A stretch of DNA of 64,000 nt from Sphagnum magellanicum (Eukaryota > Streptophyta > Sphagnopsida > Sphagnales > Sphagnaceae): assembly GCA_021904315.1 (NCBI GenBank), contig CM038920.1, positions 18,166,001 to 18,230,000 on the forward strand, in the 5' to 3' direction. Of this stretch, positions 36,900 to 50,264 are shown piece by piece; positions within the stretch are counted from its first letter, which is position 1, and the number at the start of each line of letters is the position of its first letter. The notes under the pieces are model-generated. The model saw nothing but the letters and a program-made list of their open reading frames with translations, was not told where the DNA came from and ran no database searches. A program made the translations under genes and the position numbers.

Positions 36900-38960
36900 A
36901 TGTCATCTTCTCCTTATGTTTGGCTTCAGAAAGACTACAAACTCCAAGATCATCTTTAAATTTCTCAAACTTCAACTTCCTAAAGGCTTGATCATGACAT
37001 CAGCAAGGTGATTTTGGGATGGAATGTGAACCAACTCAACCTTTTCATTTTCTAATTTCTCACGAATGTAATGATAATAAACTTTTATATGCTTCATATG
37101 CGCATGAAACACAAGATTTTTAACAATTTTCATGATGCTCTGATTGTCACAAAAGATCACAATAGGTTCAAATTTAAAATTTTGATTTCTTCGTACAATC
37201 TTCATAGCCAAGTACATTCTTTGGCACCTTCAGTAAGAGCACGGTACTTGGCTTCCATTGAAGAAAGAACAACAATGGGTTGTTTCTCCGAACATGTGAC
37301 AGCACTAGTCCCCATCTTGAACACATACCTATCGTTGAATGTCGATCATCGTTGTCTCTTGCCCAATCTGCATCAATGCCCCTCAAGCAAGTTACTAAAC
37401 CCTTTCGAATATATTATTCCAAAATTTGTAGTACCCTTCACATATGTGAAGGATACATCTAGATGGGCTTCTTGGGGAACGGCCATGTGACGACTCATAA
37501 CACCAAATGCAAAAATCAAGTTTGGGCAAGTATCAGTAAGGTAAATCAATTTATCCACCATGTGTTGGTAAAGAATGATGTCTACTACAAGAGTACATGT
37601 TTCATTAGCTAGCTTCAAATTTTCAATCATCGATACCTTGTGAGGATTACAATCTATAAAGCTAAATTCTTCTAACAATTTTCTAATGTACCTCCTTTGA
37701 ATAATCATTATCCCTTTTGGAAGATGCAAAAGCTTTACGGCTAAAAATAAACAAATGCATCAAGATCAGCCATTTTAGAAGCAAGCAATAGTTGTTTCAT
37801 TAACTAGATGATCTTCTTTGAATGGTTTCCGATCAATAGTAAATCATCTATGTAAAGGATTAATATGACAAATTTTTCATTTTCATGAAGAAAACAAAGA
37901 TTATGATATGCATTACTTCTTTGCAGTCCCTAAGACTTAAGGTAGGTATCTATTTTAGAGTACCATGCCCTTGGTGCCTGTTTAAGGCCATACAATGCTT
38001 TAAGCAAGCAACAAATTTTCCTATCGTTGCCAGGAGATGAAAAACCTTCAAGTTGTCGCATAAAGACCTTACGTAAGTCTTCGTTCAAGAAGGTTGTTTT
38101 CACATCTAAGTCAAAATTTTGCCAATTTGAATGAATAGCAAGTGCAACAATTGATTAGATTGTTCCCCATTTCACTAGGGGGTAAATGTTTCATCAAAAT
38201 TGATTCCTTCATTTTGTTGAAATCCCGAGCAACGAGCCAAGCCTTGAACTTATTTGTGGTGAACAAAGGCTTACGCCCAAATGTATGAAGATGACTCAAT
38301 TCAAGTTTGATACCTAAAAAATTTTCATAGGGAATTACTCTTTATTTCAACCTTGTAAGAGATTTATTGAACAAGTAAGTTGCAGTGTTGACTACTTCAA
38401 ACCATAGGTTTTTCGATAATTTAATCTTTAGCACCAGACTTCTTGTATGCTGAAACAATGTCCTGTTTTTCCTCTCCAATATTTCATTTTGTTGAGGAGT
38501 TTATGGTTGAATCAACTACCGTCGAATGCCCTACTCATGAAGGTAGGTGGTAAAAGAATGTAACATAAACTCCCCCCCCCCCCCCCCCCCACAATCAATC
38601 CTAAGGCACTATACTTTTTTTTCTATGAGGTTTTCTATCATTTGTTTGAAGACTTTGAATGTTAACAAGGCTTCATCTTTTCTTTTCAAAAAATACACCC
38701 ATGTGAAATGACTATAGTCATTTCTTAGGGTTATGAAGTACTTTGAACTAGATAAGGACGATACTAAAAGCGGACCACAAATATTCGTGTGTATGAGATC
38801 CAACACTCCTTTCGTTTGTTTTTTGCTTATTCTTGAAAACTTTTAGCATTGCTACCAACTCATCAAACAACCTTAACAAATTTCGAATAATTGTGGGAGT
38901 TCGGGTACTCCAATGACCCTGTTGTTGTTCGTCATGTAATGTAGTCCCTGGAAGTAGCTT
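36900..38960 (-). pseudogene. Decayed Ty1/copia retrotransposon pol (minus strand)
   Basis: Reading the minus strand from 38960 down gives a pre-integrase shard, then the integrase core start (38806-38609, 'LDLIHTNICGPL', 'YFITLRNDYSHFTWVYFLK'), the integrase end and the 'LSHLHTFGRKP' box (about 38300). RT follows: 'KFKAWLVARDFNK', '[20 protein letters not shown]', and catalytic YIDDLLLIG near 37850. RNase H ends it: 'GIDADWARDNDDR', 'DNQSIMKI', 'HIPSQNHLADVMIKPL' near 36972. Integrase-before-RT order identifies Ty1/copia. Stops and frameshifts abound, and sequence is missing between the integrase tail and RT. LTRs were not found. A 20-base poly-C tract lies at about 38571-38590. Confidence 0.9.
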
Positions 38961-40689
38961 TAAAAAGTAGTCTAAAAGACTACTAGCCAAAATTGACCAC
39001 ATTGGAGTAAGTATAGATCTCAAGAAATAGTTGCCAAAATTGTTGAAATTTCAACTTAATTATTAGGGCTTAAATTACGTTTACTTTTCATTCTTCAGGA
39101 ACTGTTTACTGCATCATGCTTACACCCAATTATTAAATAAAATCAATTTTAAACATATTTTGTGAAATAGCACTTGTGTTAATTACACATATGATTCCAT
39201 TAATGCTTGTACATTTATTAGAAAGTACAATATTGTTCTCTTCTGGAAAAAACTGAATTCTTATAAATTTTAGTTTTATGACTAACTGGTCGGCGATATC
39301 TGCAGCAGAGTCTACTTGACATGACGATTTTCCTGCCTGTGCACGCGAAGACGACCACCACTGACTGCGCTGCGTGGTCTCGATTTGCCCGGTCCCAGTC
39401 TGGTCAAGCACACAGCGAGCTAGTTTACATGGGGGCCACATGGCTGGGCTGTTTCTCTTGGAAAAGTTGGCACTACCCTACTGGGGCCTGTACAGCCTGC
39501 AGTATCTAGGTAACAACCAGTACTACAACACTTTCCTCGTGAGAATATCTGGTGTCTAGACATCTTTAATCCTGAATATAAAACTCAGTTCCCATATCAC
39601 TTTTTTCTGCAAACATTGCTCATGCATTTGGACCACAGGATATTATTATTATTATTGTTGTTAGTTTTCAGTCTTGGATTTAGCATCAAAAATTGATAAA
39701 CTTTCTGCAAACTTTTTGTCAATTTCATGATATATGCTGGGTTTTTAAACCCAAAAAGGGAACGAAATTTGTTGGCTTTTGAAGAAATGTTGTCACTTTC
39801 CTGTGCCCCCAAAATCTATCATTACTTTGGTGGCGTTTGGAGAAAACTATGAATAGAATTCTAAGAAATATCATCAATAAATGTTAAACCTACCTCGGGA
39901 TGCTCCCTGCCTACTCCTATGTCAGAACATTGAGAAAAAGACAATTTAGTTGAAATTTTCATGGTGAAGTTTTCCACAAATTCCTTTTTTTCTCCAAAAT
40001 TTGGTTTTTTTCCCAAAGACAAGGAGTTTGTGACAAACTATATTCCTTTTTTATTCTAAGGTCAACATTTTGTGAAACTTTTTCCCAAAAAAAAATGCTG
40101 ATTTGAAAATGGATTAAAAATAAGTATTAGGGTAATTAAAACATGGCACTAGAATATTTTGAAGGTCACACATGCAATCAATAATTGATGGGGATTTCCC
40201 TCCTAATTTCCTTGGTTTACAATTGTGGGTTAGTTGTCAAATTCCCTAATTTCATTTAAGAAAAAGAAAAAATTAAGGATTAAATGTTCTATGGGTATGG
40301 ATTGAATTGCATACATCAACCTTGTGGAAATTTTTGAATTAAAGGACTTTTGAACAAAAATTTTGCACAAAGGCCAGCTTTGTGTTTCTCCTTGATTTAA
40401 AATTTGGTTTAATATTTCTCCCATTTTCATTCATTTTGCCTAATGATCATCCATGATCCATGATTAAATTTTTCTTGAAATTTAATTGAATAACTTGGGG
40501 TTTCTAATTGACTTTTTTCTTCTAATGGATTTCATTTTGAACCCATTAGATAAACAAGTGTTTAATTCTTCTTTTGGTTGATTTAATATTAATATAGTTT
40601 TCAATGGTTTGATGTGCTTGATTAAATGAACTATTTTGTTTGAGTTCTTTCTACTTTCCCATTTTATGTTGGAATTTTTGTCCACTGCG
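38961..40689. other. Spacer between the copia and gypsy elements, with one exon-like island
   Basis: Mostly AT-rich. 39304-39509 is a GC-richer island, open for 62 codons from the Met at 39321, preceded by 'tctgcag' and followed by AG|GTAACA. It looks like a stranded exon ('MGATWLGCFSWKSWHY'). I do not recognise the protein and no neighbouring exon fits. Confidence 0.3.
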
Positions 40690-41052
40690 TCATGCCTGTA
40701 TGCATGGCCTCATACATGATGGCTAGTTATGGGCATGCCAATCATGCCTTTTAGGGTTAATGTACGCTTTTAGGGTTATTGTACGTTTTTAGGTTATTAT
40801 ACGTTATTAAGTGTTTTAGGGTTATGGCTTGTTTAAGGTTTCAGCTTGTTGGCGGTTATATAAAAAGCCAAGCTCTTCCCTTTTCTTGTTAGTTTTTCTA
40901 AAATTCCTTTGTTAAGGAAAGTTTCCTCCATAGTTAGACCGGATTTCTAAATGCTCATGGCGACTATTACACGGTCACTACATACATTACGTTTTCTTTC
41001 CTTCTTTGCAATTTACATACATTACGTTTTCTTTCTTTCTTTGCAATTTAAT
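40690..41052 (+). repeat. 5' LTR block
   Basis: Homologous along its length to 49809-50140. Starts TCATGCCTGTATGCATGG. A TATA box (TATATAAAAAG, about 40857-40867) fits a U3 promoter. The last part holds a local two-fold repeat of 'acatacattacgttttcttt'. The true LTR ends are uncertain, because the TG...CA borders and primer-binding site are not recognisable. Confidence 0.8.
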
Positions 41053-41870
41053 TTTAGAAAAACTATTTTCCATCACTTAATGTTGAAAGTGACAAATTTT
41101 TCTTGGCTTTGAGTTCTTGGGCTTTTTTTGCTATTGGTGTTGTTACTACTGGTGTAACTACTATTGGTGTTATTGTTGTTATTGCTACTGTCAGAGGGAA
41201 CTTGTGCTGTTATACTTATACCAACCAACAAAGCCAAGATAAAAGGAGTTGGGAAAAATGAAACCAAATGGGGGAATGACATATCTTAGAAATTTTTATT
41301 TTTATTTTATTTTATTTTTTATTTTTTATTTATTTAATTTTTTTTTTCTTTATTTTTTTTGTGCAAAGGCCTCCACCTCGAAGATTCTTAAAACTGGGTG
41401 CAGCGTCAAGTAAGAAGAAAAAAATAAAAATAAAAATTTTGCAACGTTGCAAGTTGCCGTGCCGTAAGCTACAACATCGTAAGTTGTAACGTCGTGATCT
41501 GTAGCGCGGCGTTCATCACATTGCCACCCGCCATCACCGTAGAACTCATGCATGCCTCACAACACCATGGTTGTCATGTTGCATCCACCATTACTACGGA
41601 GCTCATGGGTGTTTTATAACGCCATCCATCGCATCGCCGCCATCCGACTTTCGTCCAACGTTCGTCGAACTTTCGTCCAGCAACTTTAGTTCACAGACGT
41701 CCATCCATCGACATTTGTCCATCACCGTTCATATCTAATACTATATTCTTCAAACCATATCTAGTGCTATATATTGTTACAAAATTTTTGGGCATGGAAC
41801 AATAAAATGTCCTCGGATGATGAAAGCACTACCGTTCAGCCAAAGCGAAGGTATCAGCTACAAAATCACC
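41053..41870. other. Leader of the gypsy element
   Basis: An A/T-rich section is followed by 41440-41740, which is strikingly rich in CG dinucleotides ('cgcatcgccgccatccgac', 'cgttcgtcgaactttcgtcc') compared with its surroundings. No coding sequence recognised. 41105-41200 carries irregular TTGTTA/GGTGTTA repeats. Confidence 0.5.
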
Positions 41871-41874
41871 ATAT

Positions 41875-43200
41875 ATGCCTACTTTTACTCCATCACCCAT
41901 ATACACCATGGAGGTCAAAAGTTCCTTTGGGAGAATTGAGAAGTTCAACGGAAGGCCAGGTACCATTTCTTTGAGGGAATTCAAAGCAACTTTTTCAACT
42001 ATGATTTGTGAATTGGAGTTCAAGTATGGTGTTAATTACACTGAGGCATTCGCATTCAGACAACTAGCCCATTATGTGCACTATGAGGCATTGGATGTTT
42101 ACGAGTAACATTTTTCGAAGATTTTGGGCATCACTCAGATTCTCGATCCAGCTTATGCCATAGCCATTGCCATCGCCACCGCCTTTCAAGCTACACTACA
42201 AGCTACCATTACACATCATGGGACTATGCCTAATAATCTAAATCCAATACCTACTTTAATAAACCTTTATCCTAAAAAACCCATTAATGCTACCGCAAAC
42301 ATTCCTCCCACCATTGATGCACTAGTTTTTGTTAATCTAGTGGGGGAATTCTTTCGAGTTTTTGAGCTAGAATTTTTAGTTAAAAGTTTTGAAAAAAATT
42401 TGCAGCTTGCCACCTTCTTTCAACAAAAGGATGAAACCTTCAAAATGTTTTACAGGAGGTTTCTCAAACTTAAAAAGGATACTCAGAGCATCATAGACCT
42501 AAAAGCTGTCCATCAATATCTTCGTTCGTTGGAAGGTATTCCAACACTCCATGCGCAAGTTTTGCAACGGGTTTTTATAGAATTTAAAGACTCATACACT
42601 TTCTGGATGTGTACAACATTTTTGAAAAGTTGGAACTTACTCATGCACACTATGAGGCCTCCATCACATTCAAGGCCTCAATCTCCACCAGTTGCACCAA
42701 GTAGATCATCACATTATTCTTCAAGGCCTAAAGCAGTGGAATCGACTGCATTCATCTTAACTTCTTGCAAACTACTATGGTAATCCTTCCCACAAAGCCA
42801 ATGAATGCAACATTCCTTCTAAATATCTCTTTTGTGATTATTGTGGGAAAAAGGGACATCAGGAAGTTGGTTTTTTTTTGCCAAGTTCCTAGAACGAAAG
42901 CAACTCCGATCACCATGGCAAAATCTGCCATCATTTTTTGTTACCCCTCACACAAAAGCCAAGGCACCTTAACCTTCCACTTAGGCTTTCCCCACCAAAG
43001 GTAATTCCAGTAAGAATGCTAAGAAGAAGGAGCACAATGCCAACAAAAGGGAGGTGCTTCAAGCCCATGCCGCTCAAGTTCAAACTCTGCAAAATGAACT
43101 TGAATCATTAAAGGCCCAACTTGCTAATCTAAAAGGCAAGTCTTCCCAACCAACTAGTCATGCCCAACTTGTACAAGGTTCAAGATCATGGGAATAGCCT
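41875..43200 (+). pseudogene. gag remnant of the gypsy element
   Basis: Frame pieces 41875-42108 ('SFGRIEKFNGRPGTISLREF') and 42124-42783 ('TFFQQKDETFKMFYRRFLKL' region, Gag/retrotrans_gag-like) form the capsid part. At 42833-42870 a damaged zinc knuckle CDYCGKKGHQEVG keeps C-x2-C-x4-H but has lost the final Cys. A Glu/Leu/Gln-rich coiled-coil-like stretch follows at about 43040-43140. Several stops and frame changes. Confidence 0.65.
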
Positions 43201-43936: not shown

Positions 43937-44458
43937 GTGGATAGCCATTCTCTCCACAAAAACTTTCACTCATTTCCAAAGGTGATGCCTAATGAAAGAA
44001 CTTTCATCGCCACCGGAATTGCCATTGTCAACAATATTGAGTCAGCAATCCAGGTGGAAGGACATACACCCAAAGTGGTACTTCTTGATATAAGTGCCCA
44101 ACCAATGATTCTTAAAATATAATTCACCAAGAAGATGGGCATGTTCGACTCTAAACTACAGAAATCTATGTGGCAAATTTGCACCGCTAATGGGAACATA
44201 GAGGAGGTACTTGGGGAGAGCTTGGATTTGATTACATTTAAGTTTAATGAAGGTACAAATTAGGAGCTTTGCCTATAGGTCAAATGTTTAGTCACTAATG
44301 CCACCAGTTACGATGTGCTCATTGGGCAAGAGGCCTTATTTCCACCAAGTTTCACAATTGACAACTAGTTCGAGCATGCGTACTATCGACTAGATTGGGA
44401 GACTAATGGCCATCACCTAGGATACATACCCCTTGATTTACATGGGAACCATAAACCT
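43937..44458 (+). pseudogene. Aspartic protease remnant of the gypsy element
   Basis: 'VVLLDISAQPMIL' at about 44078-44113 stands where retroviral-type proteases have D-T/S-G-A. The catalytic Asp is present but the Gly of the triad is replaced (DIS). 'NATSYDVLIGQEAL' (about 44300) is the usual downstream strand, followed by a stretch ending 'LGYIPLDLHG' before the methyltransferase. Two in-frame stops. Confidence 0.7.
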
Positions 44459-44746
44459 ATGGCTTACCATTATATGTTCAAGGAAACACACACCATTTCC
44501 TACATCCAACAAGCTAGCCATGAGTGGATAGAGGGAGATGAAGAAGAGACAGCTTATGCCCAAGCTATTAAAAGCTTGAAGGTGATTCCTATTGACATTC
44601 AACACAAACCGGAGGTTTTACAGAGGTTCAAAGCAACCCACAAGCCCTTGTTCAAAGCTCTTTTTAATTTTGAGAACATGGAGAGCCATGGCGAACCGAT
44701 AAAATTAGTATTTCGTCAACTAATCACCTGGACACCACCTAAGGAG

Positions 44747-45700
44747 GGGATTACATTACTAAAGCTCTTTAGTGGTGCAAATCTCAAAGCCCTACTACAA
44801 TCAAGGATGGTGGTTCGGAGGTATTTTTCTACGTAGACATTGATCCTATTGCAAGGCAAGTGGCGACATCGAAAATGATGGAGTTCAAAGCCAAATTTCC
44901 ACAACAATTTGCAACCACCACATGGAAGGCCAATTTCACTTTCTTACCTTCTAACATACAACTAATTCAGAAAAAACATATGGAATTATTTGGCCCCATG
45001 GACCTCATCATTTCAAGTTGGGAGTGTCAAGGATTTTGAGTGGCTGGACTTGGAGAAGCTTTGAATGACACAAGATCCGATCTCTTCACAGGCATGGTAT
45101 GATTAATCACCTGGGCTCAATTCATTTCTCCTACACTTAGTTATGTAATTGGGAACACCTCTTCTCAGCTTGACTAAAGGGAAAAAGTCTAAGAACATTA
45201 CACATTGGTTAAACAATACCTTGGAAAGCCAATCCTTTTTGATGCAGCACAATGGAGTTCCTATGTGCACTGGCTGTACAATTGGTGGACCAACCTTGCA
45301 CCACTCTTAATTCTGCAGTTGGCTCTGAGATACACCATCAAAGACCCCAACCTGCAGGTTTCTCACATATTGGATGATCAGAACTTTTGCCAACCAGTTA
45401 CAAGGTAAGAAAAACCCCCCTTGGTTTCCTGTGAACATAATAGGAAAACCAAGAGGTGTTTGGCCCCCTTTTGTCTCCTTCCCAGGATCACACGCCTTTC
45501 AGGGAAATGGACCAAGCTTGGTGTACTGTCATGTTTCAGCCACTTGGGATGAAGTAGGCCTAAAAGAAAGAAAAAGGGCTATGGGGTTCCAAACTGACAC
45601 TACTAGTCACACCAAGGTGACTAGATTGGAACGTCATGTTCTACTGGGGAGAAGCATGGACTTGAACTCCCTTACAAGGTTATTGGTAACCTGTGTATTC
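44747..45700 (+). pseudogene. DNMT3/DRM-like C5-cytosine DNA methyltransferase domain captured in gypsy pol
   Basis: Motif I region 'GITLLKLFSGANLKALL' (44747) corresponds to the SAM-binding 'LFDGI.TG' of DNMT3/DRM enzymes. After a 1-nt frameshift in a T run (about 44823-44829) comes 'YVDIDPIARQV' (the acidic motif II turn). Motif IV 'LIISSWECQGF' (45007-45036) keeps the catalytic Cys (codon 45025-45027), with Glu in place of the usual preceding Pro. Then 'LNDTRSDLF', an E/N-containing motif VI-like 'YVIGNT', 'VHWLYNWWTNLAP' (equivalent of the 'AHRARYFWGN' box), 'ERKRAMGF' and 'RLERHVLLGRS' (45620-45656), the signature C-terminal motif IX/X of DNMT3-type enzymes. Motif order is the normal, not the DRM-rearranged, order. 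Four stops (TGA, TGA, TAA, TAA) and two frameshifts make it dead. It is collinear with protease upstream and RT downstream, so it is part of the element and not a later insertion. Confidence 0.82.
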
Positions 45701-46214
45701 TTTCAAATGTACACAACACCAACACTAATTCAATTAGCTTGTAATTCTAACGATGCGACCGCATGGCACCCTGACCAAATACACTTGCCTATCTTCAACA
45801 CTCTACACTTCACTCTTAATGTTAGGGGGGGAGGAAGTACCATGTAATTTGACTCAAGTTGTTTTTAATACACCTAGAGGTACATTAGCTTCTAGAAAAA
45901 TAATTATAACCTTCTATGAATCTGCATAGTTAGATAGTGGAAAAACCTAATACACCAAATTCTCCAAACACACTTTCCAACTCTATTCCATGTGTTTCCA
46001 ATTACCCTTTTATTATGGGAACTAGTTCACCAAGAAGAGGAGACACTAAGTCATAGACTTGTTAATTAAATATAATAATGTGTTCACATTCTCAATGAAA
46101 AACTTAGGTAGGTGTAAAACCATGCAATTTTTTATAGATCTTACAAATGAGGCACCCATCTATCGAAAGAGGCATAGGTTGAGTAAGCATGAATGGGAAC
46201 TAATAGATAAAAGA
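45700..46214 (+). pseudogene. Linker and N-terminal RT segment of the gypsy element
   Basis: 45720-46050 shows no recognised domain. From 46059 the frame 'MLIKYNNVFTFSMKNLGRC' continues through 'PIYRKRHRLSKHEWELIDK', the usual segment just before the RT palm in Ty3/gypsy pol. It is cut at about 46214. Confidence 0.6.
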
Positions 46215-47243
46215 TGTCGCAACCTTAGTTTTGGGCTTGCGACCAAAGCAAAAGGGTTACAAGGTTGCGAGCCAAAAGGAAGCCTGAGAATCAAGGCCGA
46301 GAAGAAGCCTGGGAGTCACATCACATACTCCCGGGAGTGTAAGAAAGTGTGAGGGAGTATGAAGAAGTGAACCTTCACACTCCTAAGGCAACTCCCACTT
46401 TGGGAGGATGAGTGCCGGTGGACTTCTGGAACTTCAAAGAGTGATTTCAGGGGTCAAAACTCAATGGCTTGTGGTGTTTCTTTATATCATTGGAAAGCTC
46501 TTAGAACACAAATATCTAAAATGAGCTCGCATTGCTCATTTGAACATTTGAAACACAAGTTATGGCCAAAAGAAGGGCCAAGAGTCAAATTGCCAATTTG
46601 ACTCCCGACTAGAAAAAGTCAAAAATCAACATGATTTACTTGATTGCAAAGGTCGTGTAACATACTGTTCGAAAGCTCTCAACAAGAACTACAACTTTGC
46701 TTTAGATCGTATCTCAATCCGAGGTTTGTTCGCAAAGTTATGGGGGTTCAAAGTTGCAGGAGTCCCAACTGACGCGATTTCGAGACTCTCACTCGGGAGT
46801 CCCAGGAGAGAAAAGTCATTTAGATGTGGGCTTTGTGGCCAGCCACAGAGTATACTATAAGGGGGAAGATGGTGGCTTCCCCCAAGTCCGGGCTGTGGTG
46901 AGTCTAATGTGTTTATGTTGCCCGTGGTTCATCCTAGCACCAAGGGTGCTCCAACTATGCACTAACCACTTTGTGTGGGTTATGTGTAGGCCCATGTGAG
47001 TGAGTGAAGCTTATCAACTCTTCCTAGTCCCATCCCGGAGCTCTAACACGCCCCTCTACCCCTCAAAGTGTTGTGAGCTAAGGAGCATGCCCTAACTCCT
47101 CCTTCTTCTGCTGTCTTCTACTTGGACTCACATTTGAGTCCTTCAAGGAGTTGGCAGTGTGTCAAAAGATGTAAAAAGTTTTATTAGGCTAGTCTCATTT
47201 AGCCATCAAGTTCTAATTTCACAATTGTTACAATAATGCTAAC
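46215..47243. mobile_element. About 1-kb insertion inside the RT domain (possible solo LTR)
   Basis: RT homology stops after 'ELIDK' at about 46214 and resumes at 47245 with 'KKDST' and then 'RMCGDYRPLN'. The intervening DNA starts TGTCGCAACC, is richer in GC and has no coding similarity. AAAAGA occurs just left (46209-46214) and at 47247-47252, a weak candidate target duplication in A-rich DNA. A TG start fits a solo LTR, but a matching CA end is not secure. Confidence 0.45.
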
Positions 47244-48026
47244 AAAAAAAGATTCAACTGGATTATAGACTAAAAAAAGGATGTGCGGGGATTATAGGCC
47301 TTTGAATTTGGTTACACCTCAGGACAGGTACCCCATCCCCATCCCTAAAGAACTGCTTGATAGCATTAGAGGCTCAAACATCTTCACAATTGTGGATCTA
47401 AGACAAGGCTTCAACCAGATTATGTTCATTACAAAAGATCGCAAAAAAATGGCATTCCATGGAAGCAACAAGTTGTGGGAATGGCTTGTGATGCCTTTTG
47501 GATTGAAGAATGCACCTGTTTTCTTTCAGCGAGTCATGGACCAGGTTCTCGAAGGGGCAAATTTCCTAAAATGCTACATAGATGACGTCATAGTGCATAA
47601 CAAAGGACTCATGTAGCACTTGGCTCATTTTGAGGAGTTATTCAAGAGGCTCCATGAAGTTAATATGTAGATCCATCCTAAATGTGTGAGTTTGTTGTCA
47701 CCTTAGTAGTCTACCTTGGACATAGAATTTTACCAAATAGTATTATGGTTCATTGGGCCAAAGTAATAGCCATTTTGGAAATGCCCAATCCTACTAATGT
47801 TCACACTTTGAAAAGTTTCATCAGACTATGTAATTACTATAGGATTTATGTCCAAGACTTCAGTACTATTGCTCATCCTCTTTATGCATTGTTAAAAAAG
47901 GATGTTGCTTGGACATGGAGTGAAGAAGTTCGAGAAGTTTTTAACACATTCAAGGAAAAGCTTTCAAAGTTCCCCATTCTAAGAAAACTTGATTTCAGTA
48001 AAGTTTTCATTCTACACATTGATTAA
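47244..48026 (+). pseudogene. Ty3/gypsy reverse transcriptase
   Basis: 'MCGDYRPLNLVTPQDRYPIP' opens the palm. 'FTIVDLRQGFNQI', 'MPFGLKNAPVFFQRVMDQVL' and the catalytic box YIDDVIV (about 47576-47596) follow, then the thumb ('LGHRILPNSI', 'SFIRLCNYYRIYVQDFS') to 48026. Stops split it at 47614 and 47668. Confidence 0.9.
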
Positions 48027-48420
48027 AGTGCTCTTGGTATTAGTGCTATTCTTGGCCAATTTGATGAGGAAGGCAAAGAATATGTTATCGCCTATGCATC
48101 CCAAAACAGCAATAAGGCTATGAATAACTAGTCTTCATACAAGGGGGAATGCCTTGTTGTTGTAGGGGCATCATACATTTCAAGCCCTATTTTTATGTTA
48201 CTGAGTTCACTTTATATACTGGCCACCAGCCTATCAAATGGTTGATGACCAATGACAAGCTTACTAGTACATTAGCTCATTGGGCGCTTATATTTCAAGA
48301 ATATGAATTCAAGGTTATTCACTAACGTGGTATTACACATCAAAATGTGAATACCATGTCGCGGAAACCCCTTGCTACTTTTGAAGATTTTTTAGAAGCT
48401 AGGCAAGACTTTGATTAAAT
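48027..48420 (+). pseudogene. RNase H of the gypsy element
   Basis: Begins just upstream at 'FILHID' (48006), with a stop directly after the Asp. 'ALGISAILGQFDEEGKEYVI', 'YKGECLVVV' and, near 48213-48370, 'QPIKWLMTNDKLTS', 'LAHWALIFQEYEF' and 'NVNTMSRKPL' follow the family order. Broken by at least three stops. Confidence 0.85.
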
Positions 48421-48493: not shown

Positions 48494-49410
48494 GTGCATA
48501 TATGGGAAGACTTGGACACTCTAAGGTTTCTTCAACATGGGGAATATCTTCCCCAAGTTACATCAAGTCATTGGGATCACATACAATGTCCAAATACTAC
48601 TCATGGAGGGACAATCACCTTGTCCAATGCTTACCACAAGGCGAGAGAATGGTTCCTCCACCACATGAATGGTTTGGTCTTATTCAGAAGGTACACTCGG
48701 AGCTTGGATACTTTGGAGTTAAGCGTACTTATAACCTTTTTACTCCTCATTACCATTGGAGAGGTATGTATGCTCAAGTTCGAGATGTCATTGCTAAGTG
48801 TGAACAATGTGATAGAATGAAAATTTCCTTCCCCTTTCGATAGCTCACATTTTTTCCACTCCCTATTCAGGACATGTTTTATCACTGGTCATGTGATTTA
48901 GTTGCAGAGTTACCACAGACCTCCAAGGGTAATGTCTACATCATGATTATGATTGAGCATTTTTCAAAGTGGGTCGAACTTGTTGTGTTGCCGGACAAGT
49001 CATCACACAACACTAGCCATGTTTTCTTACAACAGGTCCTAAGTAGGTTTGGCGCTTGTGCTGAGTGCATTACTAATCAAGGATCAGAATTTAGAGGAAA
49101 ATTCCAAGACCTACTTGACCAATCGTTGGACTTCAAAAGACAGCTTCAAAAAACCAACATAGGTGGTAGTTACAAACCTAACGTGAGACAATTTGATGTT
49201 GGTGATTTTATGTATTTCCAACGACAACCTAATGATACTCCAGATTCTTTTTCCGATCACACTATTTTGAGGATTAAGGCGATTAGGCCTTCAAGTGTGT
49301 TAGAGTTGCAAGGAGCTAACGGATGCACAATTCATGATCACTCCAAAAATTATGCGCCCTACCACCTGCTGAATTTAGATCCTAACATCATCACGTCAAC
49401 TTGGATTCCT
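48494..49410 (+). pseudogene. Integrase of the gypsy element, internally deleted
   Basis: Zinc-binding part: 'KRTYNLFTPHYHWRGMYAQV' and 'CEQCDRMK' (to 48830). The first His position appears as Tyr. Core: 'DLVAELPQTSKGNVYIMIMI' supplies the first catalytic Asp. The second site reads ITNQGSEF (Asn in place of Asp). After 'FQDLLDQ' (about 49122) the frame jumps to 'SYKPNVRQFDVGDFMYFQRQ', so the part with the third catalytic residue (Glu) is deleted. The C-terminal barrel-like region runs to about 49400. Confidence 0.85.
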
Positions 49411-49425
49411 CCACTTGACTATCCA

Positions 49426-49560
49426 TGTCATGTATGTCAAAAGACAAAAGATGTTTATCAAATTTTGCTTTGCGATAATTATAATGGTGGATACCATTTA
49501 TTCTGTTTCAAATCGAAGCTCATTCAAGTTCCCGTTGGCATTTGGTATTGTTCATCATGT
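49426..49560 (+). pseudogene. PHD-finger-like module at the end of the gypsy integrase
   Basis: Residues fit Cys4-His-Cys3 spacing: C-x2-C (codons 49426, 49435), then 'LLCDNYNGGYHLFC' and 'GIWYCSSC' ending at 49560. The fourth ligand, normally Cys in 'CDxC', is Tyr here (CDNY). Eight-ligand PHD fingers read histone H3 tails. The module is in frame with the integrase C-terminus and precedes the stop at 49576, so it was the C-terminal domain of the polyprotein. One lost ligand fits decay of this copy. Confidence 0.75.
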
Positions 49561-49618
49561 TCTCCTGTAACACCCTGATTTTTTACTCAAACCATACCAC
49601 GCTTTTCCTAGCTCAAAT

Positions 49619-49629: not shown

Positions 49630-49682
49630 ATATATGAGAATTTCATTTTAGCCTCCTCTTGTGCATTACATATATATGTGCG

Positions 49683-50264
49683 TGCATCTCTTTTTAGTTG
49701 ATTAGTTTCTATCTTTGGCTAGTTTTAGTATTTTTGTTTAGTAGAATTTACTATGAATTTACACCTTTATGACACCGTATGTCATGACATTACACATCAT
49801 GACAATTGTCATGCCCATATGCATGGCCTCATACGTGACGACCAATTACGGGCATGCCAATCATGCCTTTTAGGGTTAATGTACACTCTTAGGGTTAATG
49901 TACGTTCTTAAATTATTGTATGCTATTAAGTGTTTTAGGGTTATGGCTTTTTAAGGGTTTCAACTTGTTGGTGGCTATGTAAAAGGCCAAGTTCTTCCCT
50001 TCTCTTGTTAGTTTTTCTAGAATTCTTTTGTCAGAAAGAATTTCTTCCATAGTTAGACTGGATTTCTAGATGTTCACGATGGCTATTACATGGTCACCAT
50101 TTACATACACTACGTTTTCTTTCCTTCTTTGTAATTTAATTGCATGCATCTATTTTTAGTTGATTAGTTTCTACCTTTGGGTAGTTTTAGTCTTTTTGTT
50201 TAGTAGAGTTTACTATGGATTTACACCCTTATGACATCGACATTACACATCACGACAATTGGTC
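49683..50264 (+). repeat. 3' LTR block flanked by a direct repeat (A-B-A' arrangement)
   Basis: Block B (49809-50140) matches the 5' LTR block. On each side is a copy of another 120-bp block: A at 49683-49808 and A' at 50145-50261 ('tttttagttgattagtttct' through 'cacgacaattg'). Only B is present at the 5' end. Either the 5' LTR is truncated, or the 3' side underwent a local duplication or LTR-LTR recombination. Confidence 0.75.

Follow-up and report, generated by a model that had tools for sequence, protein, structure and literature searches.

The window, i.e., the whole analyzed stretch of 64,000 nucleotides from the peat moss Sphagnum magellanicum, contains a decayed copy of a Ty3/gypsy retrotransposon. 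The features of this copy are the following:

about 40.69-50.26 kb, plus strand: whole element, Ty3/gypsy, decayed copy
40687..41015, plus strand: left repeat A1, homologous to repeat A of the relatives (self-BLAST); its start and a TATA-like box were assigned by eye
41824..42877, plus strand: gag pieces in open frames, with a zinc-knuckle-like stretch at 42770-42877 (tblastn, 75% to the zinc-knuckle stretch of a relative)
43967..44416, plus strand: aspartic protease (PR), decayed (tblastn, 77%, E 5e-80)
44687..45721, plus strand: DNMT3-type C5-cytosine methyltransferase domain (DNMT), decayed, with stops and frame changes (tblastn, motif strings)
46215..47164, strand not given: nested insertion of 950 bp with TG...CA ends and 5-bp direct repeats AAAGA
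47165..47756, plus strand: reverse transcriptase (RT), with its first residues at 46170-46226, ahead of the nested insertion
47904..48415, plus strand: RNase H (RH; tblastn, 72-75%)
48634..49140, plus strand: integrase (INT), H2C2 and part of the rve core (Pfam, tblastn)
49162..49575, plus strand: integrase C-terminal region (49162-49413) and PHD finger (49414-49575)
49630..49804, plus strand: repeat B1 (BLAST to repeat B of a relative, 81.6%)
49807..50138, plus strand: repeat A2 (self-BLAST and BLAST to relatives)
50141..50257, plus strand: repeat B2 and right end of the element, ...GACA (BLAST; end by eye)

Self-BLAST aligned A1 (40689-41015) with 49808-50138 at 85.6% identity. The RT was also recognized by Pfam (PF00078, E 1.3e-16 on 47269-47616), and so was the PHD finger (PF00628, E 1.6e-6). 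The RT lies as far downstream as 47.2 kb because of the nested insertion, which is probably a solo LTR of another element; the tblastn match of the RT (47131-47756) extends with its first bases into this insertion. The window integrase was not found from query residue 171 on by tblastn with a relative, and the first part of repeat B2 was not found by BLAST. Pfam listed no zinc knuckle in the frame of a relative, and the relatives' protease matched PF13975 close to the cut-off. To the left of the element, decayed Ty1/copia-like polyprotein pieces were seen by eye on the minus strand (37930-39050).

A first-pass annotation, made from the sequence alone, had proposed that this element carries its own DNMT3/DRM-like cytosine methyltransferase at 44747-45700. 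These bounds were nearly correct, although the domain begins about 60 bp earlier. The quoted methyltransferase motifs are present on the plus strand, spread across frames that are broken by stops. With an undecayed relative as tblastn query, the domain was found at 44687-45721 in three pieces with 70-78% amino acid identity (E 3e-107 and 4e-51). The Ty3/gypsy element was thereby confirmed to contain a C5-cytosine methyltransferase domain, in decayed form, with PR and RT on either side. Read on the frame of the relative, it contains 5 stops; the Cys of motif IV is kept, motif VI reads GNT for ENT and has lost its Glu, and Arg residues of motif VIII are lost. Together with the frame changes and the partly missing integrase core, this bears out that the window copy is dead, as had been assumed. 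The broken pieces alone had no methyltransferase match in a Pfam search, and so the claim is not decidable from the window by itself.

The region 44700-45700 was then compared with the moss's own genome, where, itself aside, it matched 39 places along almost its full length with 85-86% identity; 40 of the 481 candidates were scored. The relatives are less decayed than the window copy. In two of seven excised relatives PR, DNMT and RT are encoded in one frame of 1331 amino acids that fills the excised stretch. These two frames matched the Pfam profile PF00145 at E 5e-9 and 8.6e-9, and a third frame did so at 2.7e-6; in four frames from relatives the scores were 27.5, 35.4, 35.7 and 36.5 bits (E 2.7e-6 to 5e-9), the curated cut-off being 22 bits. 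Thus, the profile check that had been proposed gave matches in the relatives, but not in the window pieces alone. In one 9.9-kb copy a single frame of 2379 amino acids encodes gag (with a zinc-knuckle-like stretch recognized by eye), PR, DNMT, RT, RNase H, integrase and a terminal PHD finger, so that the predicted intact relatives do exist. The Ty3/gypsy domain order PR-RT-RH-INT with an rve integrase is present, among solved structures the family profile matches Ty3 Gag-Pol best, and further matches of the profile are to PHD fingers in histone readers, e.g., KDM5 and CHD4. The tblastn results with the relative and the PF00145 matches of the relatives uphold the claim of a Ty3/gypsy element with its own predicted C5 methyltransferase, and chance is excluded as the source of the resemblance.

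Family members that pass directly from protease to RT had been named beforehand as evidence against the claim. They were looked for with the RT as genome query in place of the DNMT, in order to avoid selecting for the DNMT. Out of 482 candidates the 40 best RT matches were considered, and 39 of them have DNMT sequence upstream, as the domain in 37 cases and only as its 3' end in 2. A listed DNMT match lay upstream on the same strand in 32 of the 40, and in 25 of these the spacing was 468-472 bp. For the other eight, 1.6-1.7 kb upstream of the RT were examined, and a whole or nearly whole DNMT domain was seen in five, the 3' end in two and none in one. In addition, the genome was searched with PF00145 (123 of 387 candidates scored), and every listed match was above the cut-off. 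The element DNMT was resembled by 27 of 30 excised loci, the remainder being L031, L034 and L046.

Selection was analyzed with 11 copies, i.e., ten 9.9-kb loci and L004, out of the 39 relatives. Read in one frame, the DNMT had a pN/pS of 0.31 (bootstrap 0.19-0.52), and for the same copies the values were 0.32 for RT plus RH, 0.31 for gag, 0.25 for integrase and 0.37 for protease. Off-frame controls of the DNMT gave higher values, 0.54 (0.37-0.76) and 0.87 (0.45-1.62), with intervals that overlap that of the true frame. A stop was present in the DNMT of 6 of the 11 copies, and in RT or RH of 5. Against the window copy, dN/dS was 0.39 for DNMT, 0.28 for RT and 0.23 for RH, i.e., the DNMT was less constrained than the RT. 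A constraint on the DNMT similar to that on the other domains is likely, and, because of the overlapping intervals and the stops, it falls short of proof from the 11 copies alone.

Ten copies were read at both ends. The order was A-internal-B-A-B in seven and A-internal-B in three, and, thus, the layout is not that of plain long terminal repeats, but that of split direct (DIRS-like) repeats. All ten copies start with TGTC, nine end with GACA and one with AACA. A 4-bp target duplication was exact in eight copies and agreed in 3 of 4 bases in two; at the ends of the window copy none was visible. The inner B-A junction read GACA-GC-TGTC in six of seven copies and GACA-AT-TGTC in one, as it also does in the window. 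Within a copy the repeats A1/A2 and B1/B2 were nearly identical (joint K2P 0.002-0.031, seven copies), showing that both pairs are renewed at transposition, as LTRs are. The family is therefore young and has transposed recently. For the window copy the K2P values were 0.168 for A and 0.123 for B. No tyrosine recombinase was found by Pfam in the frame of a relative; rve and H2C2 were found instead. The genome contains 89 A-B junctions, and a control with the reversed pattern gave 0. Six of them, chosen among the mismatch-free junctions away from listed RT matches, were inspected, and three were 3' ends of B-A-B, while L075 was cut short. The other two, L074 and L073 (contigs C16 and C6), are solo A-B units, which correspond to solo LTRs; L074 has an exact 4-bp duplication and L073 lacks an exact one. 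Solo A-B copies could result from recombination between the A repeats, and A-internal-B copies from recombination between the B repeats.

The decay of the window copy was analyzed by comparison with one young copy. C-to-T differences were found at 32% of CG sites (84/265), 40% of CHG sites (177/447) and 14% of CHH sites (336/2344), and T-to-C differences at 6% (223/3623). C-to-T change at CG and CHG is the mark of plant methylation by MET1 and CMT, and the window copy probably underwent ordinary silencing by its host. The first-pass annotation had considered that the element could have altered host silencing; the influence visible in this decay runs the other way, from host to element, the decay being that expected of host CG and CHG methylation. 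It gives neither support for methylation by the element-encoded enzyme nor grounds to exclude it. The CpG observed/expected ratios, 0.32-0.37 in five copies versus 0.20 in the window's first 30 kb, give no support for self-methylation.

Next, the class of the methyltransferase is considered. A DNMT-only profile, built from eight proteins, was compared with solved structures. It scored up to 51.5 bits with DNMT3A, 31 with HhaI, 14-17 with DNMT2 and 10 with DNMT1/CMT; with DRM it reached up to 32 bits (4onj, presumably a DRM), and 24 bits with the chains named DRM2. The motif order of the element DNMT is I...X, unrearranged. By profile and motif order, the predicted enzyme is of DNMT3 type and not DRM, and of the double label "DNMT3/DRM-like" only the first half stood (51.5 bits versus 32 for DRM, and no rearranged motif order). 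An origin from a DRM was rejected, because the element lacks the rearranged order (VI-X before I-IV) of the host DRMs, which was seen by eye in the host genes L031, L034 and L061. One further host gene is MET1-like, again by eye, and no DNMT3 of the host was found among these host genes identified by eye (three DRMs and one MET1-like).

All 75 aligned rows in which the active site was inspected, 71 from elements and 4 from the outgroup, have both the catalytic Cys (motif IV) and EN (motif VI); only rows with an uninterrupted domain of at least 270 amino acids had been admitted, a choice that favors kept residues. The first Arg of motif VIII was invariant in 31 rows. The residue before the catalytic Cys was more variable: of the 71 element rows, 40 have Pro there, 28 have Glu and 3 have some other residue, with at least 8 changes on the tree. 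In the family of the window the motif was ECQ, with Glu for Pro, in 12 of 12 copies, window included. With the Cys retained, the lack of this Pro does not decide the matter.

The same genome contains a second Gypsy family with a DNMT (L030, L032, L033 and L060, on contigs C14, C18 and C8). Its layout is gag, PR-DNMT, a stop, RT-RH-INT and a partial PHD finger, in broken frames. Its DNMT has the motifs PCQ (GWPCQ) and ENV, scores 47.5 bits with PF00145 and shares 41-42% amino acid identity with that of the first family (42% over 330 amino acids). A protein search with the polyprotein DNMT of the first family yielded at least 33 proteins; named among the matches listed were Haematococcus lacustris (two), Monoraphidium neglectum and the record Chrzof1, presumably Chromochloris. 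Of the 33 listed matches, 31 have the DNMT behind RNase H and P0001 has it behind the protease; no neighbor was detected for P0032. The search with the second family (8000 candidates scored) yielded at least 62 proteins, and the matches listed included 20 from Marchantia polymorpha, 2 from Calypogeia fissa and 1 each from Sphagnum troendelagicum, S. fallax and Closterium sp. NIES-54; records from single organisms could be contaminants. Among the matches listed, 47 of the 61 proteins that this search added had a protease stretch ahead of the DNMT. In neither protein search was a cellular DNMT3 recognized, or a protein named Klebsormidium present, among the matches listed.

Several of these proteins deserve mention on their own. 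P0127-P0130, P0132-P0136, P0138, P0158 and others are annotated Marchantia polymorpha proteins (e.g., Mp_4g09160 and Mp_8g17980) that are DNMT-carrying retroelement polyproteins or gene models on them. P0183, from the charophyte alga record Closterium sp. NIES-54, is a zinc knuckle-PR-DNMT protein with ECQ. P0097, a DNMT protein of 329 amino acids and no neighboring domains, lies on a very long branch beside the element family.

For the DNMT tree, 86 rows with an unbroken domain of 270 amino acids or more were thinned to 71 at 88% identity. The long-branched P0097 and P0031 were left out of the resulting 69-row tree; with both included, the base of the quick tree did not resolve. In the careful tree the 69 element rows grouped together against the outgroups, which comprised only one partial DNMT3A and three DRMs, with a support of 99/98. 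The 33 RH-DNMT-INT rows formed one clade (99/99), and the architecture needs a single change. The other 36 element rows were one side of a quick-tree branch with support 80, and as a putative single clade they were not rejected (p-AU 0.162). The RT tree and the integrase tree, both without outgroup, agreed in keeping the two moss families together: in the former, nine PR-DNMT-RT rows, some of them fragments showing RT alone, formed a clade (100), and in the latter the two families were sisters (96). One predicted methyltransferase family is common to Gypsy elements of Sphagnum, Marchantia, Calypogeia, Closterium and chlorophytes, in two alternative Pol positions. The gene may have been captured once and then shifted within Pol, or related genes may have been captured on two occasions.

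Taken together, the best explanation, with a probability of about 0.82, is that the window contains a dead copy of a still young S. magellanicum Ty3/gypsy family, in which a DNMT3-type cytosine-5 methyltransferase is a regular Gag-Pol domain between PR and RT. A broader reading is tentative and has slightly less than an even chance. According to it, one deep lineage of green Gypsy elements, of chlorophytes, a charophyte, liverworts and mosses, would have carried a single DNMT3-type gene through most of green plant history and would have moved it once between PR-DNMT-RT and RH-DNMT-INT. This lineage would combine a PHD-finger integrase with split direct repeats, tolerate Glu for the near-universal Pro and methylate its own new copies.

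How the element might profit can be outlined as follows. The predicted active-site residues are kept, the domain is fixed in the family and transposition has been recent. The methyltransferase would be made and packaged with Pol, and the protease would cut it out of the polyprotein. The released enzyme would place methyl groups on cDNA of the element or on DNA that has just been integrated. The PHD finger may tether the integrase to chromatin, and new copies would enter already marked as methylated self. The price would be lower expression, and the gain would be persistence without stronger defence or damage to the host. The chain as a whole, from packaging with Pol through methylation of the element's own DNA and PHD-tethered integration to persistence, falls somewhat short of being probable. 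Self-methylation is not evidently protective, as the decay of the window copy at CG and CHG resembles that of silenced repeats in plants.

The domain could also be kept for a non-catalytic job, i.e., nucleic acid binding or the spacing or scaffolding of Pol, with ECQ reflecting a loss of activity. The 28 of 71 element rows with Glu before the Cys, against 40 with Pro and 3 with neither, and the at least 8 changes at this site would fit such a role, but Cys and EN are constant in all 75 rows, which were picked unbroken and thus favor kept residues, and 31 rows all share the first Arg of motif VIII; a scaffold would have no need for the catalytic Cys, and this role appears unlikely. Slightly less likely still, the enzyme may methylate RNA, either that of the element or a primer tRNA, instead of DNA. 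An RNA target is raised for SymbioLINE-Dnmt in the available parts of de Mendoza et al. (PMC5890265), but the profile is nearer to DNMT3 (51 bits) than to the tRNA methyltransferase DNMT2 (14-17 bits). Equally improbable is an action mainly in trans on the host genome and not on the element, which could disturb host silencing or dampen competitors. The high copy number (481 candidates, 40 scored) would be in line with it, and effects on the host methylome are discussed for Symbiodinium in the same text, but the signature of the window copy is the ordinary plant CG and CHG pattern. That a fragment of a host DNMT landed as an isolated insertion in one dead element and is foreign to the family is hardly conceivable: the decay of the window copy and the lack of a Pfam methyltransferase match for its pieces alone are all that would suggest it, and it is refuted by the RT-based search, by the uninterrupted polyprotein frame and by the same domain order in the second moss family and in the Marchantia proteins P0134 and P0158.

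A regular methyltransferase domain in a Gypsy family poses a paradox, because methylation silences plant retrotransposons, and yet the element keeps such an enzyme, probably under selection. With the occurrence in land plants and with annotated proteins of Marchantia polymorpha, a tractable model, among the matches (20 of the 62 listed), the role of the enzyme in the element comes within reach of direct tests. Natural variants for enzymology are offered by the two sites in Pol and by the recurrent switches between Pro and Glu beside the catalytic Cys. There is also a hazard for annotation, as the UniRef labels of the element proteins P0128 and P0152 are DNA (cytosine-5)-methyltransferase.

The kind of element as such is already known. 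Its source is de Mendoza 2018 (PMC5890265), and the available passages describe cases from the charophyte alga Klebsormidium nitens and from dinoflagellates; two earlier studies are cited there that noted DNMTs linked to reverse transcriptase and that may touch on green algae. According to the same passages, SymbioDIRS-Dnmt3 enzymes methylated CG in yeast, and methylation of the cDNA was proposed, while no methylation was seen in yeast with the KnitGypsy DNMT in isolation, a result that the authors regarded as inconclusive. A study of 2025 (PMC12344493), in the part available, repeats the finding for streptophytes and dinoflagellates and names LTR Copia and DIRS families. The available passages of PMC6453930 (Yaari et al. 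2019) and PMC8616336 contain no mention of such elements, and no report of DNMT-carrying retroelements in mosses, liverworts or chlorophytes was found in the PMC literature covered, which includes a minority of the subscription-journal papers and no preprints. The first-pass annotation had contrasted the algal cases with vascular plants. A vascular plant as host was rejected, the host being a moss, and this framing falls away. Compared with the published cases, methyltransferase-bearing parasitic elements are now seen in a land plant with recent insertions, and they are not confined to the algae in which they were first described, but include liverworts and a moss.

The closest known system, compared by description, is KnitGypsy-Dnmt3. 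Like the moss element, it is a Gypsy element with an unrearranged DNMT3-type enzyme in the Pol frame, DIRS-like repeats and purifying selection, and the legend of Fig. 4c in PMC5890265 describes the K. nitens element as having DIRS-arranged repeats and Gypsy domains. In contrast, the host of the moss element is a land plant, and the PHD finger and the 4-bp target duplications were shown for the moss element; the word PHD is absent from the portion of text of PMC5890265 that was examined. SymbioDIRS-Dnmt3 and SymbioLINE-Dnmt, as portrayed in that portion, share with the moss kind a DNMT inside the coding region of a retrotransposon and the coexistence of differing Pol domain orders, but they are a DIRS element with tyrosine recombinase and a LINE, respectively, whereas the moss element has an rve-type integrase and a Gypsy RT. 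With DIRS-type elements in general (A-coding-B-A-B in PMC5890265) it has the A-internal-B-A-B order of repeats in common, but it differs in its TG...CA ends, its 4-bp target duplications and the tyrosine recombinase, which was not found. The plant DNMT3/DRM genes, as presented in the available passages of PMC6453930, belong to the same DNMT3 superclass, but the DRMs are rearranged and the element is not. Relative to the literature covered, the occurrence in land plants, the wider distribution, the two positions in Pol and the PHD-finger integrase appear to be new.
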